Source: Humulus lupulus (taxonomy: Eukaryota > Streptophyta > Magnoliopsida > Rosales > Cannabaceae). Taken from it: DNA of 64,000 nt. The notes under the pieces were generated by a model. The model did no database searches, was not told the origin of the DNA, and saw only the letters and a program-made list of their open reading frames with translations. Positions 18,201 to 44,947 of the stretch are shown here, piece after piece (positions within the stretch are counted from its first letter, which is position 1; each line of letters begins with the position of its first letter). The stretch lies in the NCBI RefSeq assembly GCF_963169125.1, contig NC_084796.1:211857948-211921947 (forward strand). Direction: 5' to 3'. Made by a program: the position numbers and the translations under genes.

Positions 18201-18229
18201 ACACCCTTGTCTTTCCAAAACATCAAAGC

Positions 18230-18775
18230 CTGTAGATGGAGAACCATTACTCATCCTCAGGCAAAAAGAGAAGTGGAAGCTATCAACAAGATGCTTAAGG
18301 CCACTTTAAAGAAAAGGATGGAGCAGGCGAAAGACGCTTAGCCCAAGGACCTACCTAGAGTACTATGGAGTTACCGTACCATAGCTAGGACGTCCACCGG
18401 TCATTCACAATCCTCCATGGCCTACGGGTATAAATCCATGTTCCCAGTTGAGGCTACCATCTAAACGCTCTGATGAATGACATATGACCTGACTACAAAT
18501 CATGCTTTACTTCAAGAATCATTGGACCTAGTTGAAGATCTCTGATAAGATGCCCACCTCCGAGTAGCTTCTTACTAACAAAAGGTTGCAAATTACTTCT
18601 ATTCTAAAGTGAAGGATTGAAATATCGATGTTGGGGAGTTTGTGTTGTGACGCGTTTTCCTAAAACTCCGAGTTCCTAGTGCTGGAGTGTTGGCCCAAAC
18701 TGGGAAAGCCCTTATCAAGTCGAGAGCATCATATGTCATGAGACATAAAAACTGGCTCGACTAAGTGGGGAGTTG
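18230..18775 (+). pseudogene. integrase C-terminal part of element J, broken
   Basis: It picks up in the second half of the integrase core: REVEAINKMLKATLKKRMEQ, then LPRVLWSYRTIARTSTGHS and MAYGYKSMFPVEA. This is the usual Tat/Athila order after the catalytic Glu (here within REVEAIN). The zinc-binding head and the first two catalytic Asp residues are missing, because RNase H and the first half of integrase are deleted between about 18,200 and 18,240. Stops interrupt the rest. Confidence 0.7.
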
Positions 18776-19088
18776 ATCCCTCATGCCTGGAATTCCGAGC
18801 ACCTTCACCAATATTATCATGAATGCAAACAACTACGTACTTTTGAATTTTATTACTCATGTAGCCTAACAGAACTTAATGAAAATCATGTGCAAAAAAA
18901 ACAATATATGAAATTCAGAAATTATGCTTGTATTTTCTATTTTGTTTTATTTTACTACTCGAGGATGTACTCTCTCGCAGACCTGAGCAAGTGAATGCAG
19001 ATCTCAATCTATGATCACTTATGGGGCATAGGCAAGGGGTGAAGTCATCCTACGAGAATAGCTGCTCACGGAGTAAAACCTAGGGAAC

Positions 19089-21900
19089 TCAACTAGAGGG
19101 ACCTATACGGGGTACCTTATGAGTTAACGTAGTGTCACAAAGCTTACAAGAGTTGCCACGAGAAGTAAGACCTAGGGAACTCAAAAAGCCCGATTGTGGT
19201 CCTCCGCAGCCTGTTGAACCTTCCGAAAAAGATCCAGCCTCCTCTTTTTCCTTGGAAGCCTCGCCCTTTACCACCTAAGTCGCCTCCTTGGCTACTTGGG
19301 CCCTCTTCGTTGCTCGGGTGGCCTCCTCTTGGATGATGGCCATATCCTCCCAGACATTGGTGGCCTCATCTCAAGCTTGGGCGACTTTGTCCTTGGCTAC
19401 TTTTGCTTCATTCCTAGCTGCCTTTGCCTACTCCTCTACTGCTATGGAAGTCTCTGCTAGCCCCCATGAACAAACCTTATCTGCTTTGAGATCTACCAGC
19501 AGCTTGGTCACCTCCTCAGCAGATGCATCGTCCTTGGCATTCAATCTAGCCACCTTATCTTGGGTTCGTTGAATTTTGTACGACTTCTCCATCATAATGT
19601 TGCCAAGGCGTTGGCACATTAAAGTCGAGTGAAAAAATAAAATAAAAGTTAGTAAAATTCATGAAATGGAAACATCTCAGACAATGAAAAGAAGTTTAAC
19701 TTTATGGTGGCCTGCTGGCATAAGGAGATGAGGGAAGCCTCAATGTCATCCCTGAGCTAGACGAATCTGCAATCATTCAGCTCACACATGGAGGACCTAA
19801 CACCCTGAAGAAGCTTTGTGGCGAGCAGAATAATAAACTCACTGAGCTTCTCAGTGAATAGGCTCCCCAGTTGAGCCAAGCCAATGGGAGGCTCTCGAGG
19901 CTTCTCCTTGGGAGGCTTCAACTTCCAGATATAGTCTCCCATCTCATGGAGTGAATGGTTTCCATCCACCACGTGAGCATTGAAGTGCTCCACCATCACC
20001 GATTACTTCTCTAACAACTCCCCCTCATAGTGCTCTGGCTAAACTAGTAGGTGAGGAGGATTTTGGACTTCTGGGGTTTCCTAGCTCTCTCGAATCTTGA
20101 ATTCCATCAGATCTTCAGCGGATTTCTATGGTGACTCCCCCCGATGAAACTCCCGAGTCTCTCGAGCGGGAGTCGACTCCACCCGCTGCCTCCTCATGTG
20201 CCCTCTGGGACCCTCTAGCTCTGGATCTGGCAACCTTTGTGACAAACTGGATGATAGCCCGAGCAAGATCCCTGAGCCTCATTTGATCTGCAAAAAGGAA
20301 AACTCTGTTAGCTAAAAAAACAACAAGGAGATAAGCAATATAAAACTTGAAATACATTAAAAGTGTCGAGAGCACTGGGCTTCTCAGGAAGCCCCACCAC
20401 TTGGAGCCTCTTCCAGGTGAATAATCAATTGAGCAAAACTCCTCATCAGCTGCCCCATCTCCTGGGTAGTATTCGTGTCGTACAGGAAAAACTACGAAGC
20501 TTGGAATGATGCCACGCCATTGAGGAGCACTAAGCCCCAAGGAGGCAAACATATATTTGGCTATTGGAGGTAACAGTCAATGAGATCTTGATAATCCTAA
20601 TACTCCTCCCAAGTCCCGTAACGATCGTTGCTAAGGCCACACCAGAGGAGCGAAGGAGAAACCCAGATGTGCTCAGGACTTACCCCTTCCCCCATAGACT
20701 TAGCATAATAAACAAGGATTGGGAATTTGCCTTGATCTAGAGAGGATGGCTCAATCCCTGCTTGGAGCTCCTCCTCGCGCTCCTGATCTAGATGAGCTTC
20801 TTGGGATGCTCGGACGGCCTAAGAATTCTCCCGGTGCTCCTCCCCCAGTTGCTGGTGATACTCGTCACGGGCCACTGCGTTTATTTGATCTATGTGAGCC
20901 ATGAACCATGCTCTGAAACTCGTGGAATTCCAGAATTTGGTCAAACTAAGTTGCCGATGTGCTTCCCATTCATGACAAGCTCTGTGTTGACCAGCTTCTC
21001 CACTATCACCAATTGGCTCAACTCCAGCTCCACGTCTGAGAGCTCCTTCATCGCCTGTAAGCGATCCTGGAAAGCTTGAACGAATGGAGTGCGATGAAAA
21101 TGACCTAAACGAAGAAAAATAGCTAAGTCTAAAAAAGATCTACGAGGATTAGAGAGGAAAAACTTGGAGGTTAACAAAAAAACTACCAACCCTGGAGATG
21201 TCCAGAAGTAGGATAGGATTGGTTCGGAGTGGGAAACCGTTGGTAAAAAATAAGTGGTCCTTGAATTCTTGAGCATGGCTCTCGTTTAGGTGAGGAGCGT
21301 TGTAATGGATTTGGGAATAGTTCATCAGGGTGTAGAACTCGTCTAATTCACTACCCTTCTACTTGGGGCACACCCAGAAACTATATAATATATGCGCCGG
21401 AGAAGGCTCGGGCCACCTTTGGTGCATGTACCCGACATTCAGGCTAATGAAGACTCTGTAGCCATTCAGGATAAGTTGAGAGGGGGAGATCCCCATATAC
21501 TTCACAAAATTTACAAAATAGTGATGGAGGGCAAAGTGTCTCCCGCTAAGAGATGCGACTAGCTCCAGGCCTCGAGCCTGTAGATGTTGTAAAGAGACCT
21601 CTTTGTCTCCCGGCAAAGGAGGATGATGTAGTCCTCGGATCCTAGCCCATAGTGGGACATGATGTTGGAGCATTAAGATTATTCAACTTAATCAGGATCT
21701 ACTCCGCCTCAAATCTAAAGGACTAGTATCGTGTCGCTTCGTTGGGGATGGGAGAAATATTGACCTACACCTTAGTCAAATGGGGCATTATCGCCAATGA
21801 CCTCTCTATCACTGGAGCAGCCTCCATTGTAGCCAGACGCTCCACAGCTCTAGCCTCCTTGGGGTTTAGCCATTGTTCTCAGGCCATTATCTCAATCTCT
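19089..21900 (-). pseudogene. antisense PF04195-type coiled-coil gene of element J, broken
   Basis: On the minus strand, between pol and the right LTR, an N-terminal to C-terminal series of fragments is readable. The PF04195 core is at about 21,400-21,600 (HYFVNFVKYMGISPSQLIL). A Leu/Glu-rich segment lies at 20,941-21,090, an Arg/Ser-rich one at 20,115-20,280, and a long coiled coil at about 19,290-19,990 (with KVARLNAKDDASAEEVTKLL). The frame changes several times, partly at places that could be old introns. An antisense gene in this position is known from Tat-group retrotransposons such as Grande, and its function is unknown. Bases 21,900-22,870 would be its upstream region and show no coding signal. 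Confidence 0.65.
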
Positions 21901-22872
21901 CTGTCGAAGGCTTAAAAATCTTGTTGATGAAGTTCTCGAAGCTCTTCAGATATCTAAAACAAAAACCAAGCAATTAGGACTCTGACCGAAAGAAAAATGG
22001 TCAGAACACGAGAATACTGTAAGACAACTAATCTATTATAGAAAAAGAAGGAAAAAAATTCGAAAAAAGGAGTGTCCTTGAAGCATCAAGATATCCTTGG
22101 AGACACCAAGCGCAAGAACATGACCAAATGTGACCCGAATCTGGAAATGTTTTAGAAAATCAAATTTATGGTGAAAATGCAAGGAATAAACCACTTACAA
22201 TTGGTTTTGGCACCTAAATGAACCCAAAACAACTCAAAACAAGGCTTAAATAACCTACTCCTAAACACTCAATCAAAAACACATAAATGTAAGAATGGAG
22301 GTGTCAATGTACTTACTCGATATATATCAACGATAAGTGTTGAGTCGAGTCCGAACATGATTATATTGCCTTTGATTCATCTTGAAATAGCAATATTTCT
22401 TCTGATACCTCCTTTAGTGATACAGGATTGAAGAACTATAGAAAAGGGTTTGCAAAATGGAATTTTGAGAAGAGAAGGTATTTTCCTATAAGAAAATGAA
22501 GTGTTTTGAGAATGAATGAAAAAGTTAGGGGAAGTATTGGGGTAGCAAAGTTTAAATTCAAAACCCCAAACATGAGCAAAAAATAACTTGATCACTTGTC
22601 ATTGATCGCCTAAGGAGTAACTCGAGCATGATTTAACAGTTACAAAAATTGAGGCAAAGATTGTACCCGAAAAGGCGAAAGGACGTCTTGACTATGGATA
22701 AAACCTCTCATTAAAAAGCATTGATTGGTGGACCCGAAAATGGGGAGCCAACACGTGGTACACCCTTTTTTGGAAACGTCAGGTCTCAAGGACACCGACC
22801 AATCACTAGCCGAGCACAAACTCCCATGGAAATGTTTTATATAAGTCTCCAATGTCCCCGAGGACAAGTGAA

Positions 22873-22886
22873 GACTTGGGGGCAAA
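22873..22886 (+). other. polypurine tract of J
   Basis: The purine-rich run ACTTGGGGGCAAA lies directly before the TGTTG start of the right LTR. This is the usual place for the plus-strand primer of reverse transcription. Confidence 0.65.
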
Positions 22887-23316
22887 TGTTGTCTGTGTTT
22901 TCACCATGAAACATGTGGCATAAATTAAGATTTATTAGAGGTCCACGGAAGCTAGCTAGTGTTCCCCGGATCTGCTTAAAGCTCCATGAGACTTCATACC
23001 ATTCCCTGTCACGAACCACTACCACTGCGAAAATAACTCATTTGGAGAGCATTACCTCCCGAGGACCTTGTCAAAGGATAATGTCGCAAGTCTCCCATCG
23101 AGATCGTTTACTCATTACTTACTCCTCCAGACATGCGAGAACCCTTCTCTGAACTAGGAGGATAGTTACCAGGTGTCCAACATAATGAAATTGGACCACA
23201 AACAACCTTCTGACACCTATTGCTACATGGATAATGTTGTCGAATCCATACAAGCAACAAAAAGGATGTCCTACGACGCCGCCTAGCATGGGAAAACATG
23301 CAGCTACCACCCTGAC

Positions 23317-26300
23317 TATAACATCCTCCTAATCTAGGACTGTTAGACTATGTACTTTAAATAGTGTCAGACTCGCTAATCAAATTGTTTGGTTATAAAC
23401 GTGTAACTAAGGTTAATGTCAAGGGTTAGGGTTAAAAAAATTTCTCAAAGGAACGCTGAATTTTCTTTTTAAAAGCTTAACACATACAAGGGATCCCAAA
23501 ATGATACAAACAAATGTTTAAAAGGGGATATACAAATCAAAAGTACAACTAGCCGACCTAAGCGACAAAATAAGGGATACAACTCTAGTTCCTCTGATAT
23601 ATCCTCGGCCGTAGTGGTCGAGCAGCCCCATGTGTGCACGCCGCCACTGAAGTTCTCCAACTCATGGCTAGCCTAGCTTTCCTTTCCCCTTATCTGCACC
23701 ACATAGCACCCATGAGCCAAGGCTTAGCAATAAAACTTAAACATGTGCATGAACAGTAATCATAGATTCTAGATACACAGCTAGCATGCCCAGCAGTAAT
23801 AACCTACTCATGCATGCATGCAATTACAAAAAAATGACCACCATGTCATAACGGGGGGACGCTAACCTAAATAAATGTTTAATAAGTCATACTGGGGCCT
23901 TGCGCCCTAGGATCTGGGACTAATGAATCAACCATGTGGTCCGTGCCCTATCCTCTATATAACCAGCCTTAGAGTTGGTCCAACATACTTGGCGCTTTAA
24001 TTTTCCATGACCATTGGGCCAGACAAGCATATAATGCGCTCAAGGTTAGGCCTAACCATATTGACCAGCACTCAGCACGCTATTGCCGCCCTTGACTTAT
24101 GAGCTAAGGCTTTTTTATCAGATAATGCAAACAAACATACATCTTTAATAGTTATCCGAAAATAGAGCATTCACTCATGCATAATCAATTAACCATAGAC
24201 AGAATCATAATCATGTTCATTCTCAGGAAGGGCAAGCCCTATTCATAATCACACTTAACAACCAGATAAACAGATAATCATATATTATTAAGCATACTTC
24301 AGATAATACAAGTATGCATACATATTAATCATATATCTCAATCAATTAAATACAAACATAGTAATGACCATGTTCTTTAACGAGGTCGAGCCCTAATCAC
24401 ACAGACATTCACATATCATCATGCTCATTTACAGGGGCCCAAGACCTAACCACAACCATATCTAACAATCAGGCCAAGACATAATCACATACATCACGTA
24501 TTGGGTGCAATTTTCTTACCTTTGGTCCAAGCACAGGTTAAGAATGAACGGTCCTAGAGCACGATCCTAGTCCCAAGCCCCTATCGATAACCTAGTCACA
24601 ACCAAGTATAGAATCCCATCAATAATGAGAAAATAAAGGCTTCCGAACCGAGTCCTAGCCTTCGGGACGTCGAATTCTACTAAACTGGGTAGTAGGATCG
24701 ATCCCGAGCCCTTAGGTTTGAGTTCCCGCACTCAAAACCTCCCCAGGGCTAAAAATCCCCTTAAGCGTTGCGGCCCAAACATTTGAGTTGGGCCCGCCCC
24801 TAGTTAGAGAGCCCAAGGCTCTCCCCTGGTTCCACCCGCACCGTGGTGCGCCTCAACAGGTGCCACGACTCAAATGGCCTGAAGGCACCTGCTTCTCCCT
24901 ACGTCCAAGAGAGCCACGATGCCCCAAGAACAATGTCGTGGCTCGACATTAAAACTCTATTTTTTTCTCCATTTTCTCAAGACAAATCCCTCCAAAATCC
25001 TATCCAAATATAGCTAAATCTCAAAAGTAAAGTTCTTAATCAACTCAGCATCTCAAAACTATCAAAATCCAAGTTACAAACGAATAAAAACTCATCAAAA
25101 CAATAAAATCCAATCAAAGCTTAAGGAAACATAACTCATAAACATATTTAAATTACCTCTAACTAAGTTATTTTCTAGCTAAATCCCCTAGCTATCAAGC
25201 TTCTAACCTTCCCTAGAATCGTTATGACTCTAACCTTGCTTGAATCCGAGCTCTAAAACTCGAGTTTCCTTCGAAAACTCTAACGAGCTGAAATGAGAGA
25301 ACGGGAGAGAGAACGAGAGAGTTTGCTAAGTTATACGGTTATGAGATGTTACTTAGGGTTCAAGTAACCTTAAGCAAATCCAAAGGCTCGAGGTACCCAA
25401 AAACGTCCCCGATGGCAAAATGGTCAAAATCCCCAGAATTATGTCCTAATCTTACCAACTTCGAATATATCCTCAAATATTTATTCCCATTACCCAAGAC
25501 CCTGGTAATGTATTAAATACCCAAAATACCCTTTGACTCACCTCTAGTTGAGTATTGGTCTAGTTGTGACATTTCCCCTTGCTCGCTAGGATCGTGTGGA
25601 GTCCCAGAATTGTACTTAGCTAGTTAAATATCAGTAGTAGTAGTAGCTAGTTGTAGTTATAGTATGATAATTACTGTAGATTTTGGTTCAAGTCGGGACT
25701 TAGTTGAACACTCGTAGCAGCACTTATAGATTTTATAAGTTTAACCTATAGTTTAAGAATATTATTTATAACATAAGGTTTGACTAATATAGTTGATTAT
25801 AAAGATGCCATTTATTATACTATAAGGTTTAGATAGAATTAATAAGATCATGACACTTGTCGTGTGCATGTTTATTTAAGGATTTAATTATATTTTAAAT
25901 AAAAGAAAGTTCAAGAAAGCTCTAGAATCTTCCAAGACCATTAAGAGCATGACATTTGTCACAATCTTGTTTATTTGAGGATTTAAGCATTTTAAGTGGA
26001 TAATTCAAAAATAGAAGTTTCTAGAAGCTCTAGAACCTTCCAGAACTTGTTGGAATCTCATAATACTCAGTCAAACATGATTAATCAATTCAAATTATTC
26101 TAAAAAAGTGCAATTATGTGTTTAATATATTCACGTATGCCGATATAGCACAGCATGGGAGCCGATGTATCGCCACACGGGGAATACGAAAAACATGTCA
26201 ACTTCGTACAAACTAAACAACGAGCACTCGGGACATAGGGCAAGGCGATATATTGCCTATGATGGGCAATATATCGGCCTTACGGCCATAATTTCAAACG

Positions 26301-28435: not shown

Positions 28436-29083
28436 GAATTTTGTTCTACTTGTACGATTGGTTTAATTAAATTAATAGATAGTTATGTTACTAATATATG
28501 GGAAATGTTGCCCAATTTTTTGTAGAATTGACTTTGTTATAAACATCAGCTCGGTCGTATGCTTATTTAGTTTTGTTTATTTCATTTTTGCATAGGAATA
28601 GGATAAGATATAGAAAGAAAATAGATGTCAGTGAATAGCTTATCTATGGAATATAGTAACAGGGTTGATTTGTTCTTAAGACTTTGTTAGGAAAAATGTG
28701 TAACATCTAAATTTTACTTCTTGCCCATGTCTTAAGTGTGGAAATGTAAGAAAGATGGATCTTAGTAAGATCAAAGAACACTTATCTTTTAATGGGATCA
28801 ATAAAATTTCCACGGTTTGGTAAATGCATGGGGCGAGAGTTCTTGTTGCTCTAACTCCACCGAGCATACCCAATGAAGTGAGGAGGAATAGAGTAGAGGG
28901 GAACTGTGATCAATTTTTTGAAAGGGAGAAGATTGGATAAGGAGTTGTAGTTTGCTACATGAGGTATCTCACAATTTTCTTTTCATTTAACTTTTTTATT
29001 TGCTTTATTTAAACAACAAATTTTGTGAACTATATTCTCAACTTTCATAATTAGGTTGTTATACAATTTTGTGGCAGAGCAAG
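28436..29083 (+). mobile_element. CACTA-3, left surviving piece
   Basis: From about 28,460 the sequence parallels CACTA-1 from about 4,280: the shared order is GATTGG...TTA, GGGAAATGTTGCCCAATTTTT, TCGTATGCTTATTTA, and CATAGGAATAGGA. It continues into the transposase-associated domain, which CACTA-1 has mostly lost. The left end of CACTA-3 is missing at the junction with element J. The right edge is the AAG that was duplicated by CACTA-2. Confidence 0.7.
28605..28870 (+). pseudogene. CACTA transposase-associated domain (PF13963 type), broken
   Basis: The + strand reads MSVNSLSMEYSNRVDLFLR, then after a one-base shift FVRKNVTS and a zinc-binding stretch CPKCGNVRKMDLSKIKEHL, ending near a Trp-stop-Met-His-Gly segment that corresponds to the family's closing WxWHGE. 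The first Trp of RKWM is also a stop (RK-stop-MSV). In plant CACTA elements this domain opens the TNP2-type transposase and probably contributes a zinc-binding surface. The transposase core is not found downstream. Its place is taken by CACTA-2, followed by the end of the Ulp1-like protease at 39,4xx-39,8xx. Confidence 0.7.
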
Positions 29084-29094
29084 CACTAGAAGAA

Positions 29095-29400
29095 AAAATG
29101 CTTTTAATAACACCAAAAATGTGTTATCAAAACATACGATAACACTTTCTGATGTGTTAAGACCGACTATGTTATCGTAGGTCAGGGTACTTTACATAAC
29201 ACTTTATCAATGTTATACAGATGTGTTATTGTACTGTCAACGATAACACAATTTCTGTGTTATTTTAATATATAGATAAGTGTTTAATTATGTTATTTAT
29301 AGTCGATTATATAACACTTTTTTTGTGTTATACTACACTTTAGTATAACACTTTTTTTGTGTTATACTACACTTTAGTATAACACATGTGTTATATTAGC
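29095..29400. repeat. left subterminal repeats of CACTA-2
   Basis: The words GTGTTAT and ATAACAC recur about a dozen times in both orientations. Bases 29,310-29,380 contain a direct duplication of a unit built from ATAACAC, a T run, GTGTTATACTACAC and TTTAGT. The right end keeps GATGTGTTATGG near 39,178. These are likely transposase-binding subterminal repeats. Confidence 0.75.
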
Positions 29401-29639
29401 TTAGAGATACATAATCATTTTTTACTTACACAAAACTAGGAAAACAAATATGAAAGTTGAAGCTAAATAAGGTAACATAAATAGATTTTTATTGATTACT
29501 CAAATGTAATTACAATATTTAGTCTACTAGTCTAGGCTTAAGAAATCATATTACAACATAATTTATGCCCAATTCAGATTCCTTTATCACTATATACAAA
29601 ACAAGAAATGTATACAAAAATTAGTGAAATACATTCTTC

Positions 29640-30600
29640 CATTCTAAAGGCCTCAACTACAAATGTTGTCAAGAATTGCTCCAAAGAAATCACTCTACCC
29701 TATTCGTTCTGTCAAGTTTCCAAAAAGTGAGAGGAGGGGTTTAGGTATCGCCACTTACTCCCAATACTATAATCAGCTGCTCTTGCTGCCTGCAAAAGCA
29801 TTAGAGGTGAAACATATAACACAAACAACAGCTAAACCGAAAACCTGCAAACCCAAAGTTACATTCATTCAGCACAACTTAACAGCTTTCATGAAAAAAA
29901 AACATGGAAAGTGCTCATAAATAGGTTTTCAATTTATATGCCAAAAAACAAACCTTTTGAGTAATCTTATATCTGGATAAAGTTGAAAAGTAAAGCATGT
30001 TTAGCATCAGAGATGGAAAAACTCAAAGCAGCTAAGAAAGAAGGTAATATCATATTAAGAATGAATTGGAAAAAGTACCTTCCAAAGCTCTGAAGAAGCT
30101 CTTTCAGTTCTGACTTTGCTCATTTTCAGGTACAGTAATTTTTTCCTGGTAGAATTCCGACCTTAAGGTAGCTAACTTCATATGTATCTTTATTTCCAAA
30201 ACCAGCTTAGAATGGACTACAATCGGCAGGAAACAAGGATTTGATTTCCTGAGAAAATTGGAAAACTCTAGTTAATACAAAGAAATCTTTGTAGAGACCA
30301 TAAAACAGGTTCTACTTCAAAGAAATATATAAAATATGACATAATGGAAAATCATAGGGTGTTGAAAGAGGTTAGACTTGGGCACCCTGGCTTAGATAAT
30401 ATTGCAGCAGTGACTAATTTGAAGAGACTATCTCCACCATCTTGAGAATGTAATACTTGCCCATCAGCACTAAGAAGTAAACCCAGCCAAGGGGTTGTTT
30501 ACATGAAGTGCCAGGTATCTACTTCTCTCTGTTCAGCATCTGAGATAGCAACAATAAGATTCAAGTGGCCAGAAACACTTATTTCAACTTTAACTAACCA
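29640..30600 (-). other. unassigned exon-like segments in CACTA-2
   Basis: On the minus strand a stretch after a TTTTGCAG acceptor near 29,794 reads AARAADYSIGSKWRYL. Another, at about 30,505-30,600, reads KVEISVSGHLNLIVAISDAE. They have the base composition of exons rather than the surrounding introns, but I cannot name their source genes. A + strand stretch near 30,370 (RLGHPGLDNIAAV) is an alternative reading of one of them. Confidence 0.3.
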
Positions 30601-31628
30601 ATTAGATGATATACATCATGATTCAGGCATCTCTAGTTCATTTTGAAGACTTCAGTAAAATTATAGCAAAAGCAAGGACACCGACAGCCTTAATTTTATA
30701 AACAAAGTCTAAAGAAAAGTCTACAAACTTTGTAATAAAGATCAGATCAGGCTACAAAAACAGTGCCAGACCTTGAGGTTTTGCTAGGAGTAGATTCCTT
30801 ATTGGTCTATGATTAATAGAGGGATCTGCTACTCATTTTTCAGCTCTTTTGTTTTGCTTCATCAAACTCAATTTGTTCTAGTTTTTCTTTTCTTTTTTTT
30901 TTCTTTTTGCTTGAGCAAAACATGCATGAGAGTTAATAACCATATATATATATATTACCTTTATTAGTTATATTCAAAGGTATCATGTAGAGTTATTAAT
31001 GACCGAATATTACTTCTGTATTCCACAAATACTCTACATGTCTATCTATCTAAATGGAATTTTAAAAAATTTGACCATATATTATAAACAAGGTAGCAGA
31101 CAAAAGGGAAAGAAAAAAAATTAATAAACTTAAACAGTACACAAATAGCAAACATTCAAACTCAGATTTAGAGCATTGATCTCTTTCATATTTATAGAAT
31201 ACCAATAAAGCAACAACAAATGACATGATAACACCAGTTATATACACATATCAAGAAAAATGCTCTGTATGGGCATGTTAAAAAATTCCCATCCAATTCA
31301 CACAAACCATGTCTTATGGTCGATTCTAAAATATATTCACAAGAACAATGCATTTGTTCTGTTCAAAATTTCCAGGTATGCTTAAAAATATCTATATTGT
31401 ACGTGTCTTCAAAATCAGTATTTTCTTTAAGTTCTATTTGGTTTCAAATGAATTTTAATGTTATGCCATGAATGTTGGCTAACCTTCAATGGCAATTGTT
31501 ACTTTGTTAGAATAAAAACTTGTCAATTTCTTTATAGACCATATACTTCTTGGATTTGCAAGGTCAAAATATTACTCAGCTAAAATATTACATTAATAGA
31601 TGAATGAAGTAAGGGTAGAGACTCTTAC

Positions 31629-31894
31629 CATAAAATGCTCTCCACTTGCAAATGTAAAAGCCAATTAAAATCATCCCACAAGTTAATCCAATCAGAATAG
31701 CTATAATTACCACTGCTCTCTTCACCTTAAGATCAGCTCTTTCTTTTCCTAAATAAATTTTTGGAGCAAGAAAAGAAAATATTAATGAATTAAAATAGAA
31801 GGAAAGGAATTTGAACTTGATAAGGAACTAAACTTTTCAACCTGTAATCTGTACCAGTTGTTTTTCAAGAATAACCTCCCTCTTGTGTCCAACA
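31629..31894 (-). pseudogene. captured exons of a single-pass membrane protein, possibly a receptor-like kinase
   Basis: Two exons join in frame. 31,842-31,894 follows a CTGCAG acceptor and ends ACAG before GT. 31,629-31,748 follows a TTTAG acceptor and ends before GTAAGA. The joined frame has a charged stretch (KERADLKVKR), about 22 hydrophobic residues (AVVIIAILIGLTCGMILIGF), then YICKWRAF. A stop-transfer segment flanked by basic residues fits the transmembrane exon of S-domain or related receptor-like kinases, but no extracellular or kinase domain is present, so the family is a guess. There is no start or stop, and it is one in a row of same-strand captured fragments. Confidence 0.4.
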
Positions 31895-32053
31895 CTGCAG
31901 TCAGTAAAGAAAAAAAAATCAGTGGAAATAGATCAATCATATCGGGGAATAGAAAACGCATAATATAAAGGTGAATACAGCAAGGTCAATCTCTATTAAA
32001 TATATCTTCGATTGTATATTTAGGAAGGCACCACTAATCAGTAAATAACTAAC

Positions 32054-32192
32054 TTGGACCATTCCCAGTTTGAAAGAAAGTAGCACCACCACCAGGGAAT
32101 CCCCCTGCTGCATAAGGGGGTGGCACTTGTCCTTTGAGACCTTCTTCAGCATATTGATCATATATGGCTCTCTTCTCAGGATCACTTAAAAC
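32054..32192 (-). pseudogene. captured exon of a DNAJB-type J-domain co-chaperone
   Basis: The exon follows a T-rich TTGTAG acceptor and ends before GTTAGT. It encodes VLSDPEKRAIYDQYAEEGL, the end of helix III/IV of a J domain, then KGQVPPPYAAGGFPGGG and a Phe/Thr-Gly stretch that begins the G/F linker. This order matches plant class II (DNAJB1/B13-like) Hsp40 proteins, which hand substrates to Hsp70 in the cytosol. The HPD-bearing part of the J domain and the client-binding domains are absent, so it has no chaperone function alone. The frame is intact, which suggests a young capture or chance survival. Confidence 0.8.
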
Positions 32193-33931
32193 CTACAAAA
32201 AAAACCATAGAAAGAATCATATCAACAAAACCAGAAAACTCATAACAGAGCATAAGATACCGAGACAAACATATACCAAGTGTTAGCAACTGTTCTTGAA
32301 CATAGCTTTTAAACATATGGATACTTATTCAAACCCTCATTTACTTCTGGCCTAATGATTGAGATCACATCTATACACACCACTCTTCTATTAGGATACA
32401 ATGAAGAAATCTAAAACTTTCTAGAATTTTCCAAGTCATTAACTAGTTTCTACTATTCTCTAAATAATTCTATAATAATCTATATCATAGTCTAATTAAT
32501 TCTAGGTTTCTCCTAGAACATTCTAGAATACTTTTAACAGAAGAACATCATAATAAATGAAGCATGTTTGCATATGAGAACATTCAAACAATTTTAGAAA
32601 GGGGACCAAAAACACATTCGAAGCATTAGTTTATTTCTTGCAATTAAGGAAAGAAATTTAAACAGCCAAAAAAAGAAAGAAAAAAAGAAAATCCAGGAAA
32701 GAATAAAGAAAATGATTAAAAGGGGTGTGAATTATTTGTAAAACGATAGAATAAAAAAAAATCAGATTGTCTCTCAATAAAACCGTTATCTTTCTCTCTA
32801 GTTCTTTGTCATTTCTGTCAATGTCTATGTCTCTCATTCTTTTTTCTTTCTTGGTTCTGCATCAGTAAGGAGGTTTAATTCCAATGTCAAATTCAATTAA
32901 AATGTTCAAAAAAACTGACCTATGGGTTATTACTTGATATTTTATATAGGAAATTCTAGAAAGTGCTCATAGAATCAAGCATACAAAACAGAGAACTTGT
33001 GCTAGTAACAGGAAAATAAAATGCAGCCAATTTATACAGAAAGAAAGCACTTTAAAAAAAATCGACATGTCCTTCATAAGAAATCAAAAAAAATATACAA
33101 GTCATCTAAAGCAAACCACAGAGGCATACCTACTAGCACGAACATAGATGACATACATTTTAAAAGAAATCATAAACACAATCAAAATTTGGGGTGTGGG
33201 CAACACAGGGAAGGTCACTCTTCTAAAGTAACATATCAACTAAAAAAACCAAAACTTACCTCAATGATATCACATTTTACACAAAATAAATAAATAAACA
33301 CATTTATGAAAACAGAGAGAGAATGGGAGACTTAAGCAAAATAAGCTAGAAACAATGTTAAGCTGGTGGGAAAATATCACAAACTATTTAACTTAAGAGA
33401 CGATTCATCAAAACTATCAATCATAAGATTCCATTTTCTAAAGATCATAATCATCAACAATTATGCTAATTGATTTATTAATTAAACCCAATAGCTCATA
33501 ACCAATGTAGTTTAAAGTAGTTAGCAAAATAAGAATAAAAGTTTGTTTAATTATTAGATATTTAATCTACAAAACTAGGCACTAATATTGGTATTAAAAA
33601 TAAATAATTACTAGTCACTACTACTAGCATCAATTCGTAGCCTAGATGCTTAATAACTAATAGGCACTAATATTAATATTAAAAGTCAATAAACAACTTA
33701 ATTAAATTATACCAATCTGAACCAGAAACCCCTCTTGCATATTTTTCTGATTTAAATATTTGGACACCTCTGTCATACCAAGACTTAGTTTAATTTGGAT
33801 CCAATTCCAATTTCCTCTCAAGTTTCAAACTCTAACAATAAGTTAGAAAGGAACAATGCTGCATAAATATACAGTTTAGACATTAGACTCTCACAAAAAT
33901 AATTTAGCAATCTCATAAATTTAAAGCTTAC

Positions 33932-34073
33932 CGGTTCTCAAAAATGACATATAGAGGAATATGAAAGTTAATCTCTTTGCCATCTTCATCAACCTCTGTT
34001 GGTGCAAGCCCAGATTTACGAGCCTTCTCCAATTCAAGTTGTTTTCTATGATCCTCCCAAGATTTAAATGCCA
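33932..34073 (-). pseudogene. SLU7: captured exon of pre-mRNA splicing factor SLU7
   Basis: After a TTTTCAG acceptor the frame reads [20 protein letters not shown], then [20 protein letters not shown]. This is the conserved N-terminal block of SLU7, the second-step splicing factor that helps select the 3' splice site in the nucleus. Where the family goes on to a conserved SSAPWYLN segment, this copy instead reads LYVIFENR and then meets GTAAGC, a good splice donor. The exon is therefore hybrid at its 3' side. The zinc knuckle and the rest of the roughly 500-residue protein are missing. Substitutions such as Pro to Phe in the INPHIP motif suggest relaxed constraint. Confidence 0.85.
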
Positions 34074-34634
34074 CTGAAAATCTCAATACAATAAGACTAA
34101 CAATTCATGCCAGCACATCCAAAACATCAACAATAAAATATCTTAAAATTAATTCGTAAAAAAAATATTAACACAATTGTGTTGTACAGTCAGACATTTC
34201 CTTGAACACCTCATATACATTTGCCTATGCCTACTCTATTTTAAAATATGAAATGAGCATTTGTACATACTCACTACATGGATTCAGTAGCTTATAACAG
34301 ATAGAAAATCTATAATTATATCCAAATATATATGTATGAATGCAGTAGCTTATAACATAAGGTCTAAAATTATGTATATATATCTATGTATGGATACGGC
34401 TAAACAATAATCTGGCAGCCATGGAGATGAACCATAACAGTACAACCTGGCATGACTATCAATCCTTGTAAAGATGCACAACATAAAAGGGCACACCAGG
34501 AAAACAGTAATATAAAATACAATGAGCAAATTATTCTTAATTAAATATCCCGACTGTATAGATGAAACTGAATATCCTGACTGTATAGATAAAATGAAAT
34601 TGAACAAATCACAAAATATAATGAAAATTTGTAC

Positions 34635-34688
34635 CTCGATGTAAGCTGAATTAATGGCTCGTTGTGCTTCCTTAACAGCAGTGTCAAA
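34635..34688 (-). pseudogene. PFK: captured exon piece of ATP-dependent 6-phosphofructokinase
   Basis: A short frame reads FDTAVKEAQRAINSAYIE and ends at GAG before GTACAA, a plausible donor. The plant phosphofructokinase family has FDTAVEEAQRAINSAYIEAH at this position, so the match is 17 of 18 residues to my memory of the motif. The enzyme phosphorylates fructose 6-phosphate in glycolysis. Only this fragment is seen. Its upstream edge has no clear acceptor, so it may have been cut at capture. The active-site residues of the enzyme are not included. Confidence 0.75.
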
Positions 34689-35368
34689 CCATTAACACAA
34701 GTCAAAAGTTGGAAAATTTTATTGAAAGAACTAAAACCAACAAGAAAAAATAGCTCAAAAAGAGACGTTTATTAAATTTTGATTTATTAAAGTTGAATAA
34801 AGATATTTAGTCTTCAAAGTACACGTTTTTATTTAATTTTCAAGTAGTGGGACAAAAGTGAAGCATATAATTGTAAATTTAGATTTCTATTCATTAAGAT
34901 TTGTCCACTAAAAAAATATATAAGAGTGTAATCCCCCATTCTCTCTATTATGTAGCCATTAAATAATTTATTATACTTGCCATGGAATGAGACCATACCA
35001 AACTAGCTAAGATTTGTTAGTAGACATTATCTAACTTGACATGACCTCCACATAATTTAGATTTCTATTTTAATTTTTTGTTATCAATATGGGGCAGAAT
35101 GTTCACAGAATCATGCAAACGCATCAGACTGATGAAAAGTTCAGATTTTAAATTTCCCTCTATTGGTTCAGCTCAATATTCAAAATTGTCCCCTGTTTCT
35201 ATATCTTATACTTTTCCCTGGTAGATTATGTATCTTTTCAAAATGAGTATAGAGAAATTAAACATTCTAGAGAAAATGACTTAGTACTTTGAGTGCCTTG
35301 GTACTAATAGAGAGTGTTTATCACATTAAATAGAAAAATAAAAGAGAGGTCTTCGTGAATCAAAGAAC

Positions 35369-35494
35369 CTTGCAAAAACCAGTGATGATAACTTTATCAC
35401 CATCTTCTAGGAATTTACGGGTTGCCCCTTTCAATGAGAGTGACTTCTGTCCATTCCATGACAACTCTAACAAGCATCCCAAGGACTTTGGCTC
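35369..35494 (-). pseudogene. FAH: captured exon of fumarylacetoacetase
   Basis: The exon follows an AAACAG acceptor and ends TGCAAG before GTTCTT. It encodes EPKSLGCLLELSWNGQKSL, then SLKGATRKFLEDGDKVIITG and FCK. This is the C-terminal part of fumarylacetoacetase, where the family reads GCLLELxWNGQ...TTRKFLEDGDEV. The enzyme splits fumarylacetoacetate at the last step of tyrosine breakdown. The metal-binding catalytic centre is upstream and absent here. The frame is open and the splice sites are kept. I first considered translation initiation factor IF3 because of the FLEDGDKV words, but the GCLLELSWNGQ block fixes the assignment. Confidence 0.85.
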
Positions 35495-36503
35495 CTGTTT
35501 GGACATACAACATTCAGTAGTTCTATTCATACTAGGTAAGAGAGCATTCAATAGGAAACTGAACAAGGAGAATAAAATGTTTCAATAAAATAAATAGGAC
35601 TATTGATGATTAGTCAGAACAGCAAAGTAATAACTTGAAAATCAAGTGAGTACAACAAAAAAATAAAAATAAATAACAAATAACAAATAAGAATGCACAC
35701 ATTTCACAATTTTAAGAAGTATTTCAGCAAATACATCCTATGCTTCAAATATCTTTTGCAGGAGTGTACTGAAAACAAAAAGTAGAGGACTTAGACTCTT
35801 AGTATTAGAAACAAAGTACTAAGCAACCATACACTTGATATGATCTAGAGTAAGAAGGTAACATAAAAATTAACATTGGCCAATCCCCTCAAAGATATTG
35901 GAAAATACTTAAAAGCATTGATACTTGTTAATTGCCAATCAAAAACAATGTCTGCAACTATTCTTTTACCAAAAATAAGTATGAGAGTACATAATAGGTA
36001 GACTAAGCCATTGTCAATTTGTCATACAAATAAAATGAAGAGAAATAGATCAATGGTGCTGAGAGAAACATGTATTTTGGTGATTCAAGCTTATAGACAA
36101 AATAATGATGGCCACATACCAGTAGTATATACAGTAGAAGAAGCCAATACAACATGCCAACTCATATATACATATATTGCAAGGGAACAATACTGTGGAA
36201 TCAGTAATAGAAGAAATCGAAGAAACAATATGAAAGAAGAACTTCGAAAGATCATCAGAAAATCAACAAAAAAATGCAATACTTTATGTGCTGTCATTTC
36301 AGTTTAAGCACAGGGGCACTATCACGGTTGATATTATCAGATGATTCATTTTTGTGTTATGTGCTGTCATTTCAGTATAATCAGTTAGTAATGCCACTGA
36401 TTCAGAGACTGCAGTATAGTCTAAGGAAAAGTATAATACATTAATAACTTTTCAAATAAAGTAGTTGAAAATAATAAATAGCTTCTGTAACATATAACCC
36501 ACC

Positions 36504-38314
36504 CGTGGAGCCATCCAAAGCAAGAGTATCAATACAGTGCCGGATAGAATCGCATATGTTTGCCAAAGCCCAAGAAGCAGTTATTCGCACCTGAAACAAC
36601 AAACGTACAGGAAAATATTACTCCCTTATGAACAAATTAGAGAGCAGGGTTATTATAAAAACTGAAAGTAAAAGAGAAATAGCGATATTGAGGGGTCGCG
36701 GGTATTAATCTCCACTGCGTGAAACAGTTTGTTCAGGATCTCTGCACTATACCATTTAAGTTTCTAGTAATTCTTCTGTCTATATTTCGAGCTCAAAGAA
36801 ACATGAAAGCATGAAAAAAAATTTAAAATCACCTCTGGAGAACTTCAGGAAAACATGAAATGACACCAATGGCTTGACAAGAAGCTGATCTAACTGAAGG
36901 CACCTCGTCTTGTTTGGCTACATTAATCTGCAAAGTCTCTTAGTTATAATGCATAAACTTGTCTGCAAATAATTAATTTCCAAGAGAAACAAGTCAAAAA
37001 CACATAATCAATGCTTACCGCGGCCGAAATAATGAAATCATGTTTCTCCTTCGCAAGAGAGAAGAATACAGAGGAAGTTATGCCCGCAAAACATGTTACT
37101 GATGCAGCTCTCACCTTGCAGAACACATAGAGGTGGTTCAGAAGTAACTACAGACACTTAAAAGTCCAAGCTAAATTAATAAAACGAAACTTCAGGGGGC
37201 TTATAATCAATCTTTAAAAATCCTACCTAAATTAATAAACCTAAACTTCTGTCAATTCTTGATAATTAATATTACAAGGGTTCTTAAACAGATTAACACT
37301 TTGCAGAGAAAGAAAAAAGAATGATAATGAATTGTCTTTTCTTAGTTACTTTATACTTAATGATATCAGGTCAATGTTAATCAACCACTGCAGAAGCATA
37401 ACGCAGAATCAATGGAAAATGCTTGAGCAGATACTACTCAGATCTTCTATTCGCTTCTATTTTATCTTTCATAAACTGTATAACTAGATCCAATTACAAT
37501 GACAGATAGCCACTTTCTCAATTACAGCTAATTAACAAAAACACATACCCTAATACACACTCATGCCCTCACTTGACACGAGATAAATAACTACAATTAT
37601 AATAGAAAAATGTATTCAGAATTATATAATATCTATAGCAAAAAATAGCTAATTCCACCATTGAAAACCTGATACATCAACACAAGCATACAAATAGTAA
37701 ATCCAAGATTCCAAATACAAAGTACTTCAAGCAATGCCTAGATTCTTGACAAGAGAATAATTTCTGACAACCATAAAGCATGGTATTTCCAAACTAACTA
37801 ATAGGTTACCTGGAGAGCCTCTAAGCATACTGTGTGATTGTTTACTTTTTCCAAGTAATGAAACAAAGTAAGAAGAACACCTGGCTTCTTTTCAGCCTCA
37901 ATAAAACCTGTAAGAAAGCCAATAATTAATTTATAATATTAAATGAAACAAGGAGTTTTGTGTAAAACTCTTGAGCATACTTCTGACAATATGAAATATT
38001 AGCACTTGACCATCCTCATGGCATGAAATAATACTCACCTTCATTCATCTCTTTAAGAAGCACTTCTTTAACTTGCGTTGAGGATGGTGAGATAGTGAAA
38101 CTTGCTGTCAAACAACTAAAAGAAGCAGTCTGTTGAAAAGAAAAGTATCACTAAGGCGTGCAATGAAGTGAATAAAATTATGTAATTGTTATAATCAGAG
38201 AGGGAACCATACCAGTAGACCTGTCTGGTCATTTCTGAAAGGGAAACCGACTTCAATCCTTTTTTTATGGATGTTATAACTGTTGGCAACAGTTCAATAG
38301 TCATTCTTGAATAT
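36504..38314 (-). pseudogene. captured multi-exon segment of a HEATR6-like HEAT-repeat protein
   Basis: Six consecutive exons with AG and GT borders lie at about 38,221-38,314, 38,039-38,129, 37,810-37,907, 37,019-37,114, 36,833-36,927 and 36,504-36,590. They read, in order, MTIELLPTVITSIKKGL, SFSCLTASFTISPSSTQVK, FIEAEKKPGVLLTLFHYLEK, VRAASVTCFAGITSSVFFSL, VPSVRSASCQAIGVISCFPE and VRITASWALANICDSIRHC. These are alpha-helical HEAT repeats, and the last three have the VR(A/S)A...GI/NL signatures. The set resembles plant relatives of HEATR6, which are uncharacterised ARM/HEAT proteins. Exon order and introns are preserved, so genomic DNA rather than mRNA was captured. It is the largest captured piece and sits nearest the right end, where transcription on this strand would begin. 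Confidence 0.65.
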
Positions 38315-38639
38315 CTGTAATACAAAATAGTCAGCAGTCAATCTCATTTCACAAATTTCACAAATTGGCGACAAAAAGGAATTTTCTGCTCAGTAGTAAA
38401 ACACTGAGTCCTACTCGAGCCATATGACAAATAGATCAAAAAGGGGATTTCATCAAATTTATAAAGCTTCTCAAGGAAGCTTCGATGTTCTTCAAGAACT
38501 CAGAAACCCAAGAACTAAAATTGGGATTTTGAGTCATTTTTTCACAACATTTCAACAAATCAGAGGTGAAATTGGTTAACCCAAAGCCTAGGCTATATCA
38601 AATCAACATAGAAATGCTAGTTCTACCTATATCAAATCA

Positions 38640-39175
38640 GAATGAAGAAGAGAGAGAAGAAAGGGAGCTAGAGAGAGAGCAAGGTAAAAGCATTTGGTGA
38701 TGGTGACGAGAACATTACCTGATTTCAATGTTCAAAGACAGTGGAAGGATCCATCCATCAACCTTTCTATCTCCACAGCGCTGACCTGCACTTTCCACCT
38801 AGTTCACCGACCTCACAAGTCTGATTTGGCCAAAGCCTCTAGGGAAGATCGTGCCTCCTATATCGCCTTCGAATGTGGTGTAGCCCTTCTCAGGATTTGT
38901 CTTTCGTTAAGGGGAGTGAGAGACCGAGAGAGATAGGTCCGGGAAATGAGACATGGGAAATGGGTATACCAGGAAGAGAAATAGAGAAGAAAATAAGACA
39001 CAGGAGAGTATACCAGGAAGAGAAAGAGAGAAGAAAATGAGGGAAATGGGTATACGAGAAATGGGTACACGGGAGTCTGCTGTAGAAAAAACTTAGAGTG
39101 ATTTGGCGCTATTTTATTTTCCCTTGCCGCCTGAAACTTTCCTAATATACAATAACTCTTTTTAAATAGTATTAT
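38640..39175 (-). other. right end of CACTA-2: possible promoter/leader and short tandem repeat
   Basis: Bases 38,930-39,070 hold about two copies of a purine-rich unit containing GGTATACCAGGAAGAGAAA and GAGAAGAAAAT. Minus-strand bases from 38,940 down to 38,700 are G+C-richer than the surroundings and end at a CAG/GTAATG donor-like site near 38,718. They could be a captured first exon or leader. An open frame on the opposite strand (38,694-38,936) matches nothing I know. Confidence 0.35.
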
Positions 39176-39214
39176 AATGATGTGTTATGGTAATGGGTGT
39201 TTGGTGTAGTGAAG

Positions 39215-39818
39215 GCTGCCACAATAATTTTTTATTTGTCAATCCTAATGTTGTAGCCAGTAAAGGAAGTTCATTCCAACATTGTGTGCAAAATTTGTTC
39301 CAAAGATGTTGTCAAGTAAAATGAAATTAACAACTTATGCTTGTCCCTTGAAACCATGGGTAAGTTCAAAAGTTTGTCATTGTCAGATAATTAGTACATA
39401 GATTATTTTTTGTCATTGGAGTTATATCTAGTATCATTTTTCTTATGCAGTGAGCATTGGATTATATTGGCGCCATATGCTTATTACACTTGTTGTTGTA
39501 ATCCATTGAACGCAATACATGAAATTTGTAAAGAAATTGTAGCAATAATTGTCAATGCTTCTAATATTTTCGTCACTAATCCGCCAAATTGTCTTGAGAT
39601 CCTAAATGAGCTAAGTTTTATGCAATTTCAAGTAAATAACCACATATTTAATTATTTTGTTCTGTATAATTCTTTAGAAAATATACATGTAATTTTACTG
39701 AGTTATTAATTTTTGCTTAACCTTTTATTTAAATTATAGTGTCGACAACAATAAATAATGTATCATGTGGATACTACATGATGAGTATGTTGAAGGACTT
39801 GATTGGACATACACGTTG
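39215..39818 (+). mobile_element. CACTA-3, middle surviving piece
   Basis: It resumes after the second AAG of the CACTA-2 target duplication. It holds the end of the element's Ulp1-like protease and parallels CACTA-1 from about 4,620. The match stops at CATACACG (39,811-39,818), where CACTA-1 continues CATCCACGACCTGG. The rest of CACTA-3 reappears at 62,335, beyond element F. Confidence 0.65.
39440..39811 (+). pseudogene. Ulp1-like (C48) protease C-terminal part, broken
   Basis: After a TTATGCAG acceptor near 39,450 the frame reads EHWIILAPYAYYTCCCNPLN, with the catalytic His in the HW pair. The family's Asp (in the xxDPL motif) is Asn here (CNPL). A second exon near 39,745 reads VSCGYYMMSMLKDLIGHT and keeps the nucleophile Cys in CGYY. 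Proteases of this type are encoded by many plant CACTA and Mutator-like elements. Their role in transposition is unclear. The two exons are separated by an intron-like stretch, and the gene is cut off at 39,818. Confidence 0.6.
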
Positions 39819-42381: not shown

Positions 42382-44947
42382 TATAATACCCTACTTCCTT
42401 AGAGTCGTTACCAAGTGATTTATAAATGTGCCATTAGCTCGCTAATCAAGGTTTAAGATTAGAAAGTGTGTTCGGATAAAAATAAAGACTCATTTAACAA
42501 ACATTAAGTATAAAGAGTTGGTATTTTATTGAAATTCGTAAAAAATATTACATTGGGATCCCAAAAAACTGTTTTGAAATACATTTACAACCCAAAATAC
42601 AGTACAGTCAACCTAAGCGACAAAACCAAACGTTTACCACGTGTTCCTTAAAATAACTCCAGCCGTGGTTGCCAAGTAGGCCAAACATGTACACACCACT
42701 CCATGCCCTCTAACTCATGGCTATAAGATCCAGATTCCTTGCTCTTACCTGCACCACAGAGCACCCATGAGCCGAGGCCCAGCAAGAGAACTTCAAGCAC
42801 TAAATACAATAAAAATATATCTCACAACTCATATTTAATCAGAGCAACAAACAGATACCAGATCTTACTAGCATGTTAAACAACACAACATCTAGACTAG
42901 CTCAAAATCACAATGGCATAACAGCCTAATAGTACAGCAGTGCAATCACACATTAGCACTATAACACGACAACATAATAGTACAACGGTATATTCACACA
43001 GCAGCTCAATACTACAACAGCATATAACAAAGCAACCAACAAGCTAAACACATAGTGGCCATGCCGTCCGAAGCGCTTTACCAGACCCTGGGTTCGCGGT
43101 CTGCACCGAGGGGATGAATACAGCATCCTAGGAGGGTCTCGCCCTAACAGCTTGCACTCCATGTGCTCAACACTGTTTCTGGCACCTTGTCATTCTCGAC
43201 TTTGTACTCTGCGTGCTTTACACCGATCCCGGCCCCTTTCCGCTTCCGGCTCTTGCCGCTTCTGGCCCCTGCCTCTCCCGACTTTTGCTGATTTTGACTC
43301 TTCCTGCTCCCGGCCCTTGCCTCTCCTAGCTTTTACTGATTCCAACTCTTGCCGCTCCCGGCCCTTGCCTCTCCCAACTTTTCTGATTCCAACTCTTGCC
43401 GCTCCCGGCTCTTGCCGACCAGTCATAATCACACGTATGACATAACAAATATAAAACAATACATGCAGTACAACACACCACATAGCTCTATGAGTACAAA
43501 CAGTTCTCTTACCTGGTGTCCCGAGCTGACAATCCAAAGTGATCCCGAGCACGATCCTAATCTCGAGCCTGAGCAGTAATACCTAGTCATAACGCATCAA
43601 CAATAGCCATCCATCAAGTTCTAATCCATTAAATAACTTTGGGTTGCATTTCTAGTCTCTGGGACCTTGGATTCTACCAATCCGGATGGTAAAATCCTTC
43701 CTGAGCCTTAACATTTGAGTTCCTAAACCTAAAACCCTCAAATGGCCAACATCAGACACTTGAGCCACGGCCCAGCCCCTTAAGGGTCGCGGTGCGTTCA
43801 AGTTAGAGGCAAAAGCCTCACTGATTGAGGGACACGGGCCACGACATTCCCTTCCTTAGGCCACGGCGCGCCTAGCTGGCAGAGGCTTCCCAGCCTCTTC
43901 GAACACACGGGTCGCGGCGCCTAAAGAACAGGGTCGTGGCTCAAGCCTAAAACCCAGAAATCCCACCATTTTCTACATTTTTCCTGAACTCAATTCACCA
44001 AAATTCCACCCTAAACATGAAATACAACCTTAACTAAGTCTCTCAAGTATTCCCAAGTACCTTAAACAACATCACCATAATAATAGCTAAATCAAAACTC
44101 CATCACAACCCCAAAATTCAAACCTTGAGTTTGCAACTCAAGAACATCAATATCAAACTGATAATTCAGCAGAGAAGCATATGAATTCACTTACCCTATC
44201 TGGCAATGATAACCCTGAACCAATCCTCAGCTGATCCCAGCTTGATTCTTCAATCTCCAAGTTTCCACACCTTAGAGTCTCAGCTAGTTCCTCAAAGAAT
44301 TCCCCTTAGCTCCAAGAACACCAAATGGAGAGAAAAAGGAAAACGTTAAGGGAGTTCTTTCTATTCGGGTGGTAACTACTATCTAAAGCCATCCAAACTT
44401 ATCCCCAAGTGAAAAGTCCATAATGCCCTCTAGACATAACCCTATCCTGTAACAGCCCCAAGGGCTAAATCGTCATTTCCCACGTTCCTTTAGTTCCTCA
44501 AGTGTTCCTAATAAATTCCCATCTAATCCTGACATGTCTAAACCATTACTAAACTACCACCCGTTACTCAATAAATCCCAAACTCATATTATATCCCAAA
44601 AATACCCCTAGGCTCCTCCCGAGTCGGATATCTAACCCCGTTGTGACTTTCTAGCTAAATTTCTCCCTAGGATCATCTCGGATCACACATCTCAAATATA
44701 TATCCCCATAACACTGGGATCTCACTCACAACACATGCATATTTACATTTATGCCCCCAACGGGCCAAAGTTACAAACACGCCCCTGTTCACAAAAATGG
44801 GCCTACATGCATATTTCATACACACAATCATGCATGTCCAATCACATAATTACGAAATTCATATAATATCATAATTATATCTATTATTGCCCTACTGACA
44901 CACTAATCAAGGCCCTAAGCCTTATTAGCAAATTTTGGGACGCTACA
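42382..44947 (-). mobile_element. solo LTR E of the Tekay-like family, inside D
   Basis: It starts TATAATACCC and ends GGGACGCTACA, decayed forms of the family ends, with a perfect 5-base duplication CGATC (42,377-42,381 and 44,948-44,952). Length is 2,566 bases, in opposite orientation to D. It has TTGGGATCCCAAA at 42,556, CTTACCTGCACC at 42,747, a minisatellite at 43,210-43,430 and a G+C-rich island at 43,755-43,935. This is the deepest level of the nest. Confidence 0.85.
43205..43430. repeat. G+C-rich minisatellite in solo LTR E
   Basis: Words of the type CCCGGCTCTTGCCG / CCCGGCCCTTGCCTCTCC recur about eight times. They are grouped in a longer period of about 60 bases that also contains CTTTTACTGATTCCAACTC. 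The reverse complement (CGGCAAGAGCCGGG) is the unit of the array at 53,480-53,610 in solo LTR I. Confidence 0.8.

Follow-up and report, generated by a model that had tools for sequence, protein, structure and literature searches.

A CACTA transposon of Humulus lupulus with host gene pieces in one direction, and its relatives with a shared left end and differing right ends

CACTA transposons that carry pieces of host genes, the Pack-CACTA elements, are a known kind of element. The soybean Pack-CACTA Tgm-Express1, 5.7 kb in length, holds pieces of five unrelated host genes, introns included, which are spliced as exons of one transcript (PMC1947982). In the Tpn1 family of the Japanese morning glory the termini are conserved and the interior is swapped for captured genic regions; nearly all members are non-autonomous, with 339 non-autonomous copies (PMC5105172). 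The Pack-CACTA and Pack-TYPE elements of Arabidopsis, rice and maize grow via joint movement of neighbouring same-orientation elements, by which the new DNA becomes internal (PMC8903248), and fusion of such neighbours has also been described in another study (PMC13317346). Maize Helitrons have gained several gene pieces in sequential steps (PMC3288121). Here we analyze an element from a 64,000-nucleotide stretch of Humulus lupulus (contig NC_084796.1, our contig C4), called the window below, together with its relatives in the 2.48-Gb genome. We found that it is a CACTA element with pieces of several unrelated genes, and that in this element and the scanned relatives every gene piece matched by Pfam at E <= 1e-3 runs in the same direction.

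The element begins with CACTAGAAGAAA and ends with TTTGGTGTAGTG, and is flanked on both sides by AAG (Table 1), as an earlier note made from the letters alone had stated. Most copies that were read have CACTACAAGAAA as their left end, so that the window element carries one change there. Units of TATAACAC/GTGTTATA recur at 29106-29386, in the left 300 bases or so. It thus has the features of the CACTA superfamily, namely CACTA...TAGTG terminal inverted repeats, a 3-bp target site duplication (TSD) and subterminal repeats. No transposase was detectable in the window element, nor by Pfam in the scanned stretches of ten elements, and neither Rfam nor a tRNA scan gave a match in the window. The element is a non-autonomous Pack-CACTA carrying host gene pieces. 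Two other kinds of gene-carrying element were considered and rejected. Helitrons are rolling-circle elements without CACTA ends, terminal inverted repeats or TSD, unlike the window element, which has all of these. Pack-MULEs have long terminal inverted repeats and a TSD of 9-11 bp, and the repeats here are of the short CACTA type with a 3-bp TSD. With the element removed, the insertion site reads TTGTGGCAG-AGCAAGG-CTGCCACAA, and a 9-bp inverted repeat (29069-29077 and 39216-39224) surrounds the insertion. A palindrome as a rule of insertion was rejected: at least 9 bp was seen at 25 of 5,000 random sites, and among nine other elements tested one (L010) had 7 bp and eight had 5 bp or less.

Like Tgm-Express1, the window element has CACTA ends around several unrelated gene pieces with introns, apparently on one strand; unlike that 5.7-kb element, for which one insertion is described, it is 10.1 kb long, has thousands of related ends and several gene sets, and is known here from DNA alone. 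It shares conserved termini and a replaced interior with the Tpn1 family, but its 3,075 left ends compare with 339 non-autonomous copies there. It differs from the Pack-TYPE elements cited above in that one terminus is kept and the opposite one exchanged. Its stepwise gain of several gene pieces resembles that of maize Helitrons. Since the five pieces of Tgm-Express1 are spliced as exons, the same-strand array itself has precedent. Its unusual features are the number of ends, a right end that can be exchanged, and a direction that has so far been strict. We found no statement on gene direction in Pack-TYPE or Tpn1 elements in the covered parts of PMC8903248 and PMC5105172, and no report of family-wide sense-only capture in CACTA elements in the open-licence literature, to which the search was confined and where absence therefore counts for little. 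Our preferred reading, to which we assign a probability of about 0.72, is that of a Pack-CACTA family in which the interior has been replaced stepwise by host gene DNA including introns, the left end has been kept, the right end has been exchanged together with the module behind it, and the pieces run one way.

Allowing up to 3 mismatches, the genome has 3,075 matches to the 30-base left terminus and 2,112 to the right terminus, and both reversed-terminus controls gave 0 matches. Copies of the left 2 kb are spread over ten large contigs, and 20 relatives picked from these matches were read. In eight of the 20, each at its own site, the right end was located and the 3-bp TSDs match; in a ninth, L021, it was located but the TSD is mismatched, and for 11 the motif scan within 10 kb found no end with a matching TSD. 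For two of these 11, L017 and L027, a right end was placed by alignment to L009, with TAATG in both. The element and its relatives have moved, and the copies are close to each other. The earlier note had allowed that the exons might lie in a larger host locus of which the CACTA ends are no part, and the eight relatives with left and right ends and own TSDs are not of that kind. The view that this is a host locus with chance CACTA ends, or an assembly artefact, merits practically no credence: we found no support for it, and it is at odds with the ten contigs, with the matching TSDs, with the order of pieces, which the relatives keep as in the window element, and with the location of the SLU7 parent in its own gene on another contig.

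More than the left end is shared with the window element by 18 of the 20 relatives, whereas in L027 and L028 the shared part is limited to roughly the left 609 bases. Counting a fragment as shared when over 60% of its length is present, the lipin piece is found in 16 relatives, the first exon part of SLU7 in 15, the possible phosphofructokinase (PFK) piece in 14, the DNAJB exon in 10, fumarylacetoacetase (FAH) and HEATR6-like exon F in 7 each, exons E and E2 in 3, and exons A-D in 2. Sharing thus drops toward the right, and some of the absences are internal deletions. Siblings with subsets of the fragments therefore exist, in line with the stepwise build-up that the earlier note had envisaged. 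The right parts fall into several classes that depart from the window sequence at different points, and those of other classes hold other genes, such as those for a K+ transporter, a P450, an exportin and a topoisomerase, among others. In L020 the gene strand has a long cytochrome P450 coding stretch at element bases 6888-7982 (profile positions 1-379 of 462, E 2.1e-43). L012 has a 1.86-kb insert at element bases 5330-7186, perhaps a nested transposon, and its bases 5549-7187 match the right part of L011 in reverse.

The two termini behave differently across these classes. Identity over the left 170 bp is 94-99% between classes (86-89% for L016, which has an indel), and that over the right 170 bp is 92-96% within the class of L009, L013, L017 and L018, 90% between the window element and L016, and 62-86% between classes. 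A new right module thus comes with another right terminus, as fusion of neighbouring same-orientation elements predicts, while the filling of an internal gap between fixed ends predicts otherwise. The last 60 bases of the window element are identical to those of L016 and L028, the latter having no other match of at least 100 bases beyond the left 609. The family thus diversifies by retaining its left end while it acquires a different right end together with the host DNA that follows it. In the mechanism that we propose, two nearby elements in the same orientation would move as one, or the template would be switched between elements, with transposase supplied in trans. A donor locus with two flanking elements did not turn up.

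Exchange between elements contributes as well. Most of the right-part differences might stem from recombination among Pack-CACTA copies already present, or from template switching between them, rather than from fresh capture, and we give this nearly even odds. The HEATR6 block 35519-38335 is also found between other flanks; the left flank of L034 and the right flank of L038 match stretches of L027, and the right flank of L040 matches L024, in the same orientation and in a different order. Likewise, the FAH/HEATR6 junction in the window element joins blocks that are found apart elsewhere. Yet every block still required a first capture, and the right modules of L010, L020, L021 and L023 hold families unseen in the window element.

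To score direction we scanned the window element and the distinct modules of nine relatives with Pfam, in three frames per strand and at the single threshold of E <= 1e-3. Scans of single open reading frames proved too weak, and whole frames of both strands with stops written as X were used instead. The queries for the PDB searches had been picked from the minus strand, and these results are left out of the strand counts. All 11 families detected lie on the minus strand and 0 on the plus strand: LNS2 in the window element, K_trans and Branch in L010, DUF4042 and TOPRIM_C in L021, p450 and a CRM1 repeat in L020, ATP-synt_C and GT43 in L023, Mito_carr at two places in L028, and a PTP-like phytase in L027. 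Nine of the 11 exceed the Pfam cut-off. The two-sided binomial probability is 0.001 for 11 families and 0.016 if each of the seven carrying elements is counted once. The window element alone contributes one match on the minus strand and none on the plus strand. Weaker matches were left uncounted; they fall on the minus strand for zf-RING (0.0027, L020), DNA_pol_A_exo1 (0.011, L027), Potass_KdpF (0.05, L010), PipA (0.086, L015), HMG-CoA_red (0.12, L009) and HEAT (0.15, window element), and on the plus strand for a Ly-6-related nematode family (0.0017, window element, the best plus match there), DUF3641 (0.023, L023), AUX_IAA (0.08, window element) and FANCE (0.21, L024). Shared blocks of at least 150 bp among 12 elements have the same orientation in 148 of 148 cases, these being pairs of related copies and not independent. 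On the plus strand A exceeds T in 18 of 20 500-base steps of the window element, an excess expected from T-rich plant introns on the minus strand, and the mean A-over-T skew has a positive sign for the window element, as it has for each of the 7 further modules from elements whose right end was located. The same-strand captures that the earlier note reported for one element thus hold in the scanned relatives; the serial read-through that it offered as a route of capture was not supported.

The gene direction probably runs from a promoter end on the right to a poly(A) end on the left. In seven elements the gene strand has an AATAAA some 405-410 bases inward of the left end, and the left 620 bases contain no AATAAA on the opposite strand; TATA-like stretches and pyrimidine-rich leaders were seen by eye on the gene strand near the right end. 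Together, AATAAA and the TATA-like stretches suggest right-to-left transcription with the pieces in sense. Sense pieces might be the ones retained, as a piece in antisense would introduce poly(A) signals, stand in the way of transcription or trigger silencing; alternatively, the capture step itself may be directional. The latter would mean that new right ends land in sense, or that repair switches template along transcribed strands. It would account for the uniform direction of the 11 families, including those of L027 and L028 with little more than the left end in common with the window element, and for the joint arrival of right terminus and new genes; captured pieces in Chenopodium CACTA elements are, moreover, reported in the 5' region (PMC8978399). 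However, in the grapevine element Cactavine-5 a captured PPR piece is described as opposite to the transposase (PMC2528002), which means that a single direction is no rule for all CACTA elements, and the tandem-fusion model, as set out in PMC8903248, by itself offers no reason for gene direction. We therefore hold directional capture to be tentative and on the unlikely side. A stricter form, in which the family is a one-way collector of exons with a fixed tail and exchangeable heads, taking up host DNA in sense alone and solely behind a promoter-side terminus that has just been joined, is a speculative extension that we think improbable.

The transposase would have to come from elsewhere in the genome, where the Transposase_21 family has 8,572 first-look candidates; of the 150 scored, 145 are without an internal stop, so that a rich supply is possible.

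Several observations weigh against stepwise replacement with a kept left end and one-way pieces. The occurrence of gene pieces shuffled across lineages in other orders means that simple rightward growth is not the whole story. SLU7 is the only parent gene found. As to direction, LNS2 and DUF4042 are under the Pfam cut-off; neither strand of L009, L015 or L024 has a family at 1e-3; and as the larger part of the sequence is without a family assignment, antisense pieces that match no Pfam family could have escaped notice. The base skew is not specific to the element, the plus strand being A-rich over much of window positions 11001-25500 as well, and single 500-bp steps inside elements have negative skew (2 of 20 in the window element). 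Among the 150 scored Transposase_21 matches, none lay, by eye, within 20 kb of a listed end, in a comparison with the 100 left ends (on contig C1) and 100 right ends (on C1 and C2) that were listed; with no transposase tied to the ends, the promoter direction is drawn from AATAAA and the TATA-like stretches.

The identity of the pieces in the window element agrees in part with the earlier note, which had listed six genes. Several unrelated pieces on the minus strand are borne out, with FAH, SLU7 and DNAJB matched in PDB, alongside the HEATR6-like exons. The lipin piece was absent from its list. Two of its identifications were left unconfirmed: the PFK piece (21 amino acids) has no PDB match up to E 10, its tentative label being based on a motif, and for the membrane-protein exon within the open stretch listed in Table 1 there was no PDB match and no better Pfam match than the one given there.

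The note had also expected the parent genes elsewhere in the genome, which held for SLU7. A search for the Slu7 family, in which every one of the 12 candidates was scored, gave 13 matches. These define three sites at which the complete domain is present in pieces, with a TAG within one piece at two of the sites, and one other place. One of the three, at C2:295921783-295922172, matches the captured piece at 80%. The alignment to this parent spans an intron (77% over 273 columns, within a 1,001-base stretch of the host locus), which points to capture at the DNA level. Copies of the element match the whole 481-base SLU7 query from the window at 96-98%, so that SLU7 was captured long before the copies spread. 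For HEATR6, a DNA search in which 40 of 201 candidates were scored gave 45 matches, none clearly a parent, and element copies filled the candidates. A search with the DUF4042 family yielded 29 matches (E up to 10) from 37 candidates, with 23 of the matches over the cut-off. A comparison of coordinates by eye placed three matches on the same strand as a listed right end and 666-681 bases inward from it. The FAH search scored 40 of 53 candidates; nine matches are full (including the window), 18 reach up to about 35517 and 13 start from 35513-35534. No FAH parent was pinned down among these 40, which element copies likewise filled.

The HEATR6-like region at 36503-38314 has seven exons with introns, where the earlier note had counted six. 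Exons A-E join into a single open frame of 157 amino acids. The E2 donor is CT in the window and in four of 11 copies (GT in the other seven), and the lipin piece has an in-frame stop. The name HEATR6 is tentative, with weak matches to DUF4042 (E 0.094) and HEAT in the window; DUF4042 scores better in L021 (E 9.1e-6), and PDB gave nothing significant (best E 0.95). Tests of selection and decay covered this piece. In 11 copies divergence from the window is 3.2-5.3% in exons and 2.2-3.2% in introns, exons exceeding introns in all 11, and codons with a single change include 109 non-synonymous (6 of them stops) versus 40 synonymous changes. A coding function was rejected on these grounds, and a protein role appears unlikely. 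Over 12 copies, C>T/G>A changes per site amount to 1.10 at CG, 0.75 at CHG and 0.09 at CHH. This is a strong CG/CHG signature: the copies decay like methylated DNA, and coding selection is absent.

It was proposed in the earlier note that the element might yield a chimeric RNA or small RNAs against six host genes. That it is a functional chimeric gene or a small-RNA source regulating them, kept for the benefit of the host, is in our estimate very improbable. The splice dinucleotides of exons A-F are intact in 127 of 130 readable cases in the 11 copies (E2 set apart), the pieces of Tgm-Express1 are spliced into real transcripts (PMC1947982), and the CG/CHG decay points to silencing marks. Survival of the splice sites is, however, expected anyway at about 3% divergence; the HEATR6 piece is without coding selection and has stops, its E2 donor is broken as described, and the match of the SLU7 piece to its parent, 77% in the alignment and 80% in the genome search, would be poor for a small RNA.

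Table 1. Coordinates of the element and its parts in the window
Feature	Position	Strand	Remarks
Whole CACTA element	29084-39211	minus (gene direction right to left)	10,128 bp
Left TSD, AAG	29081-29083		
Right TSD, AAG	39212-39214		
Left terminal 609 bp, including subterminal repeats TATAACAC...GTGTTATA	29084-29692		small indels; kept in 20/20 relatives
AATAAA	29488-29493	minus	nearly same place in 7/7 elements checked
Lipin/LNS2 exon piece	30114-30251	minus	Pfam E 4.7e-6, under curated cut-off; in-frame stop
Open stretch with membrane segment	31591-31827	minus	Pfam E 0.021 only; gene identity unconfirmed
DNAJB-type J-protein exon	32052-32192	minus	PDB search E 5e-7
SLU7 piece, two exon parts and retained intron	33740-34104	minus	PDB search E 5.8e-8; host gene DNA match 80%
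Possible PFK exon piece, unconfirmed	about 34626-34690	minus	21 amino acids
FAH exon piece	35366-35494	minus	PDB phmmer E 1.7e-10
Junction of FAH and HEATR6 blocks	35517-35518		among 40 scored sites 18 end at about 35517, 13 start at 35513-35534
HEATR6-like exon F	36503-36590	minus	
HEATR6-like exon E2	36683-36746	minus	limits by eye; donor CT in window
HEATR6-like exon E	36833-36927	minus	
HEATR6-like exon D	37019-37114	minus	
HEATR6-like exon C	37810-37907	minus	
HEATR6-like exon B	38039-38129	minus	
HEATR6-like exon A	38221-38314	minus	
Right terminus, class-specific	39042-39211	minus	TATA-like TATATTA at 39143-39149, by eye

Elsewhere in the window, the minus strand has an open frame of 268 amino acids at 55429-56235, whose motifs resemble those of a Ty3/gypsy-type reverse transcriptase/RNase H piece. 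Tandem units of 33-35 bases with a palindrome-like GACGTCTCCC...GGGAGACGT lie at 2738-2886 and 5205-5333, and the tandem arrays at 43223-43417 and 53481-53593 are built of short GC-rich units, 16 and 18 bases long.

The way in which cut-and-paste transposons acquire host exons is a matter of debate. In this family, which has 3,075 left ends, different gene sets on a common tail and a direction that is strict so far, the question becomes countable in one genome, within which the direction of capture, the age of each capture and the origin of each terminus can be scored. If direction is set at capture, the mechanism would be tied to transcription or to the polarity of insertion; if it is due to later loss, young captures should be mixed.

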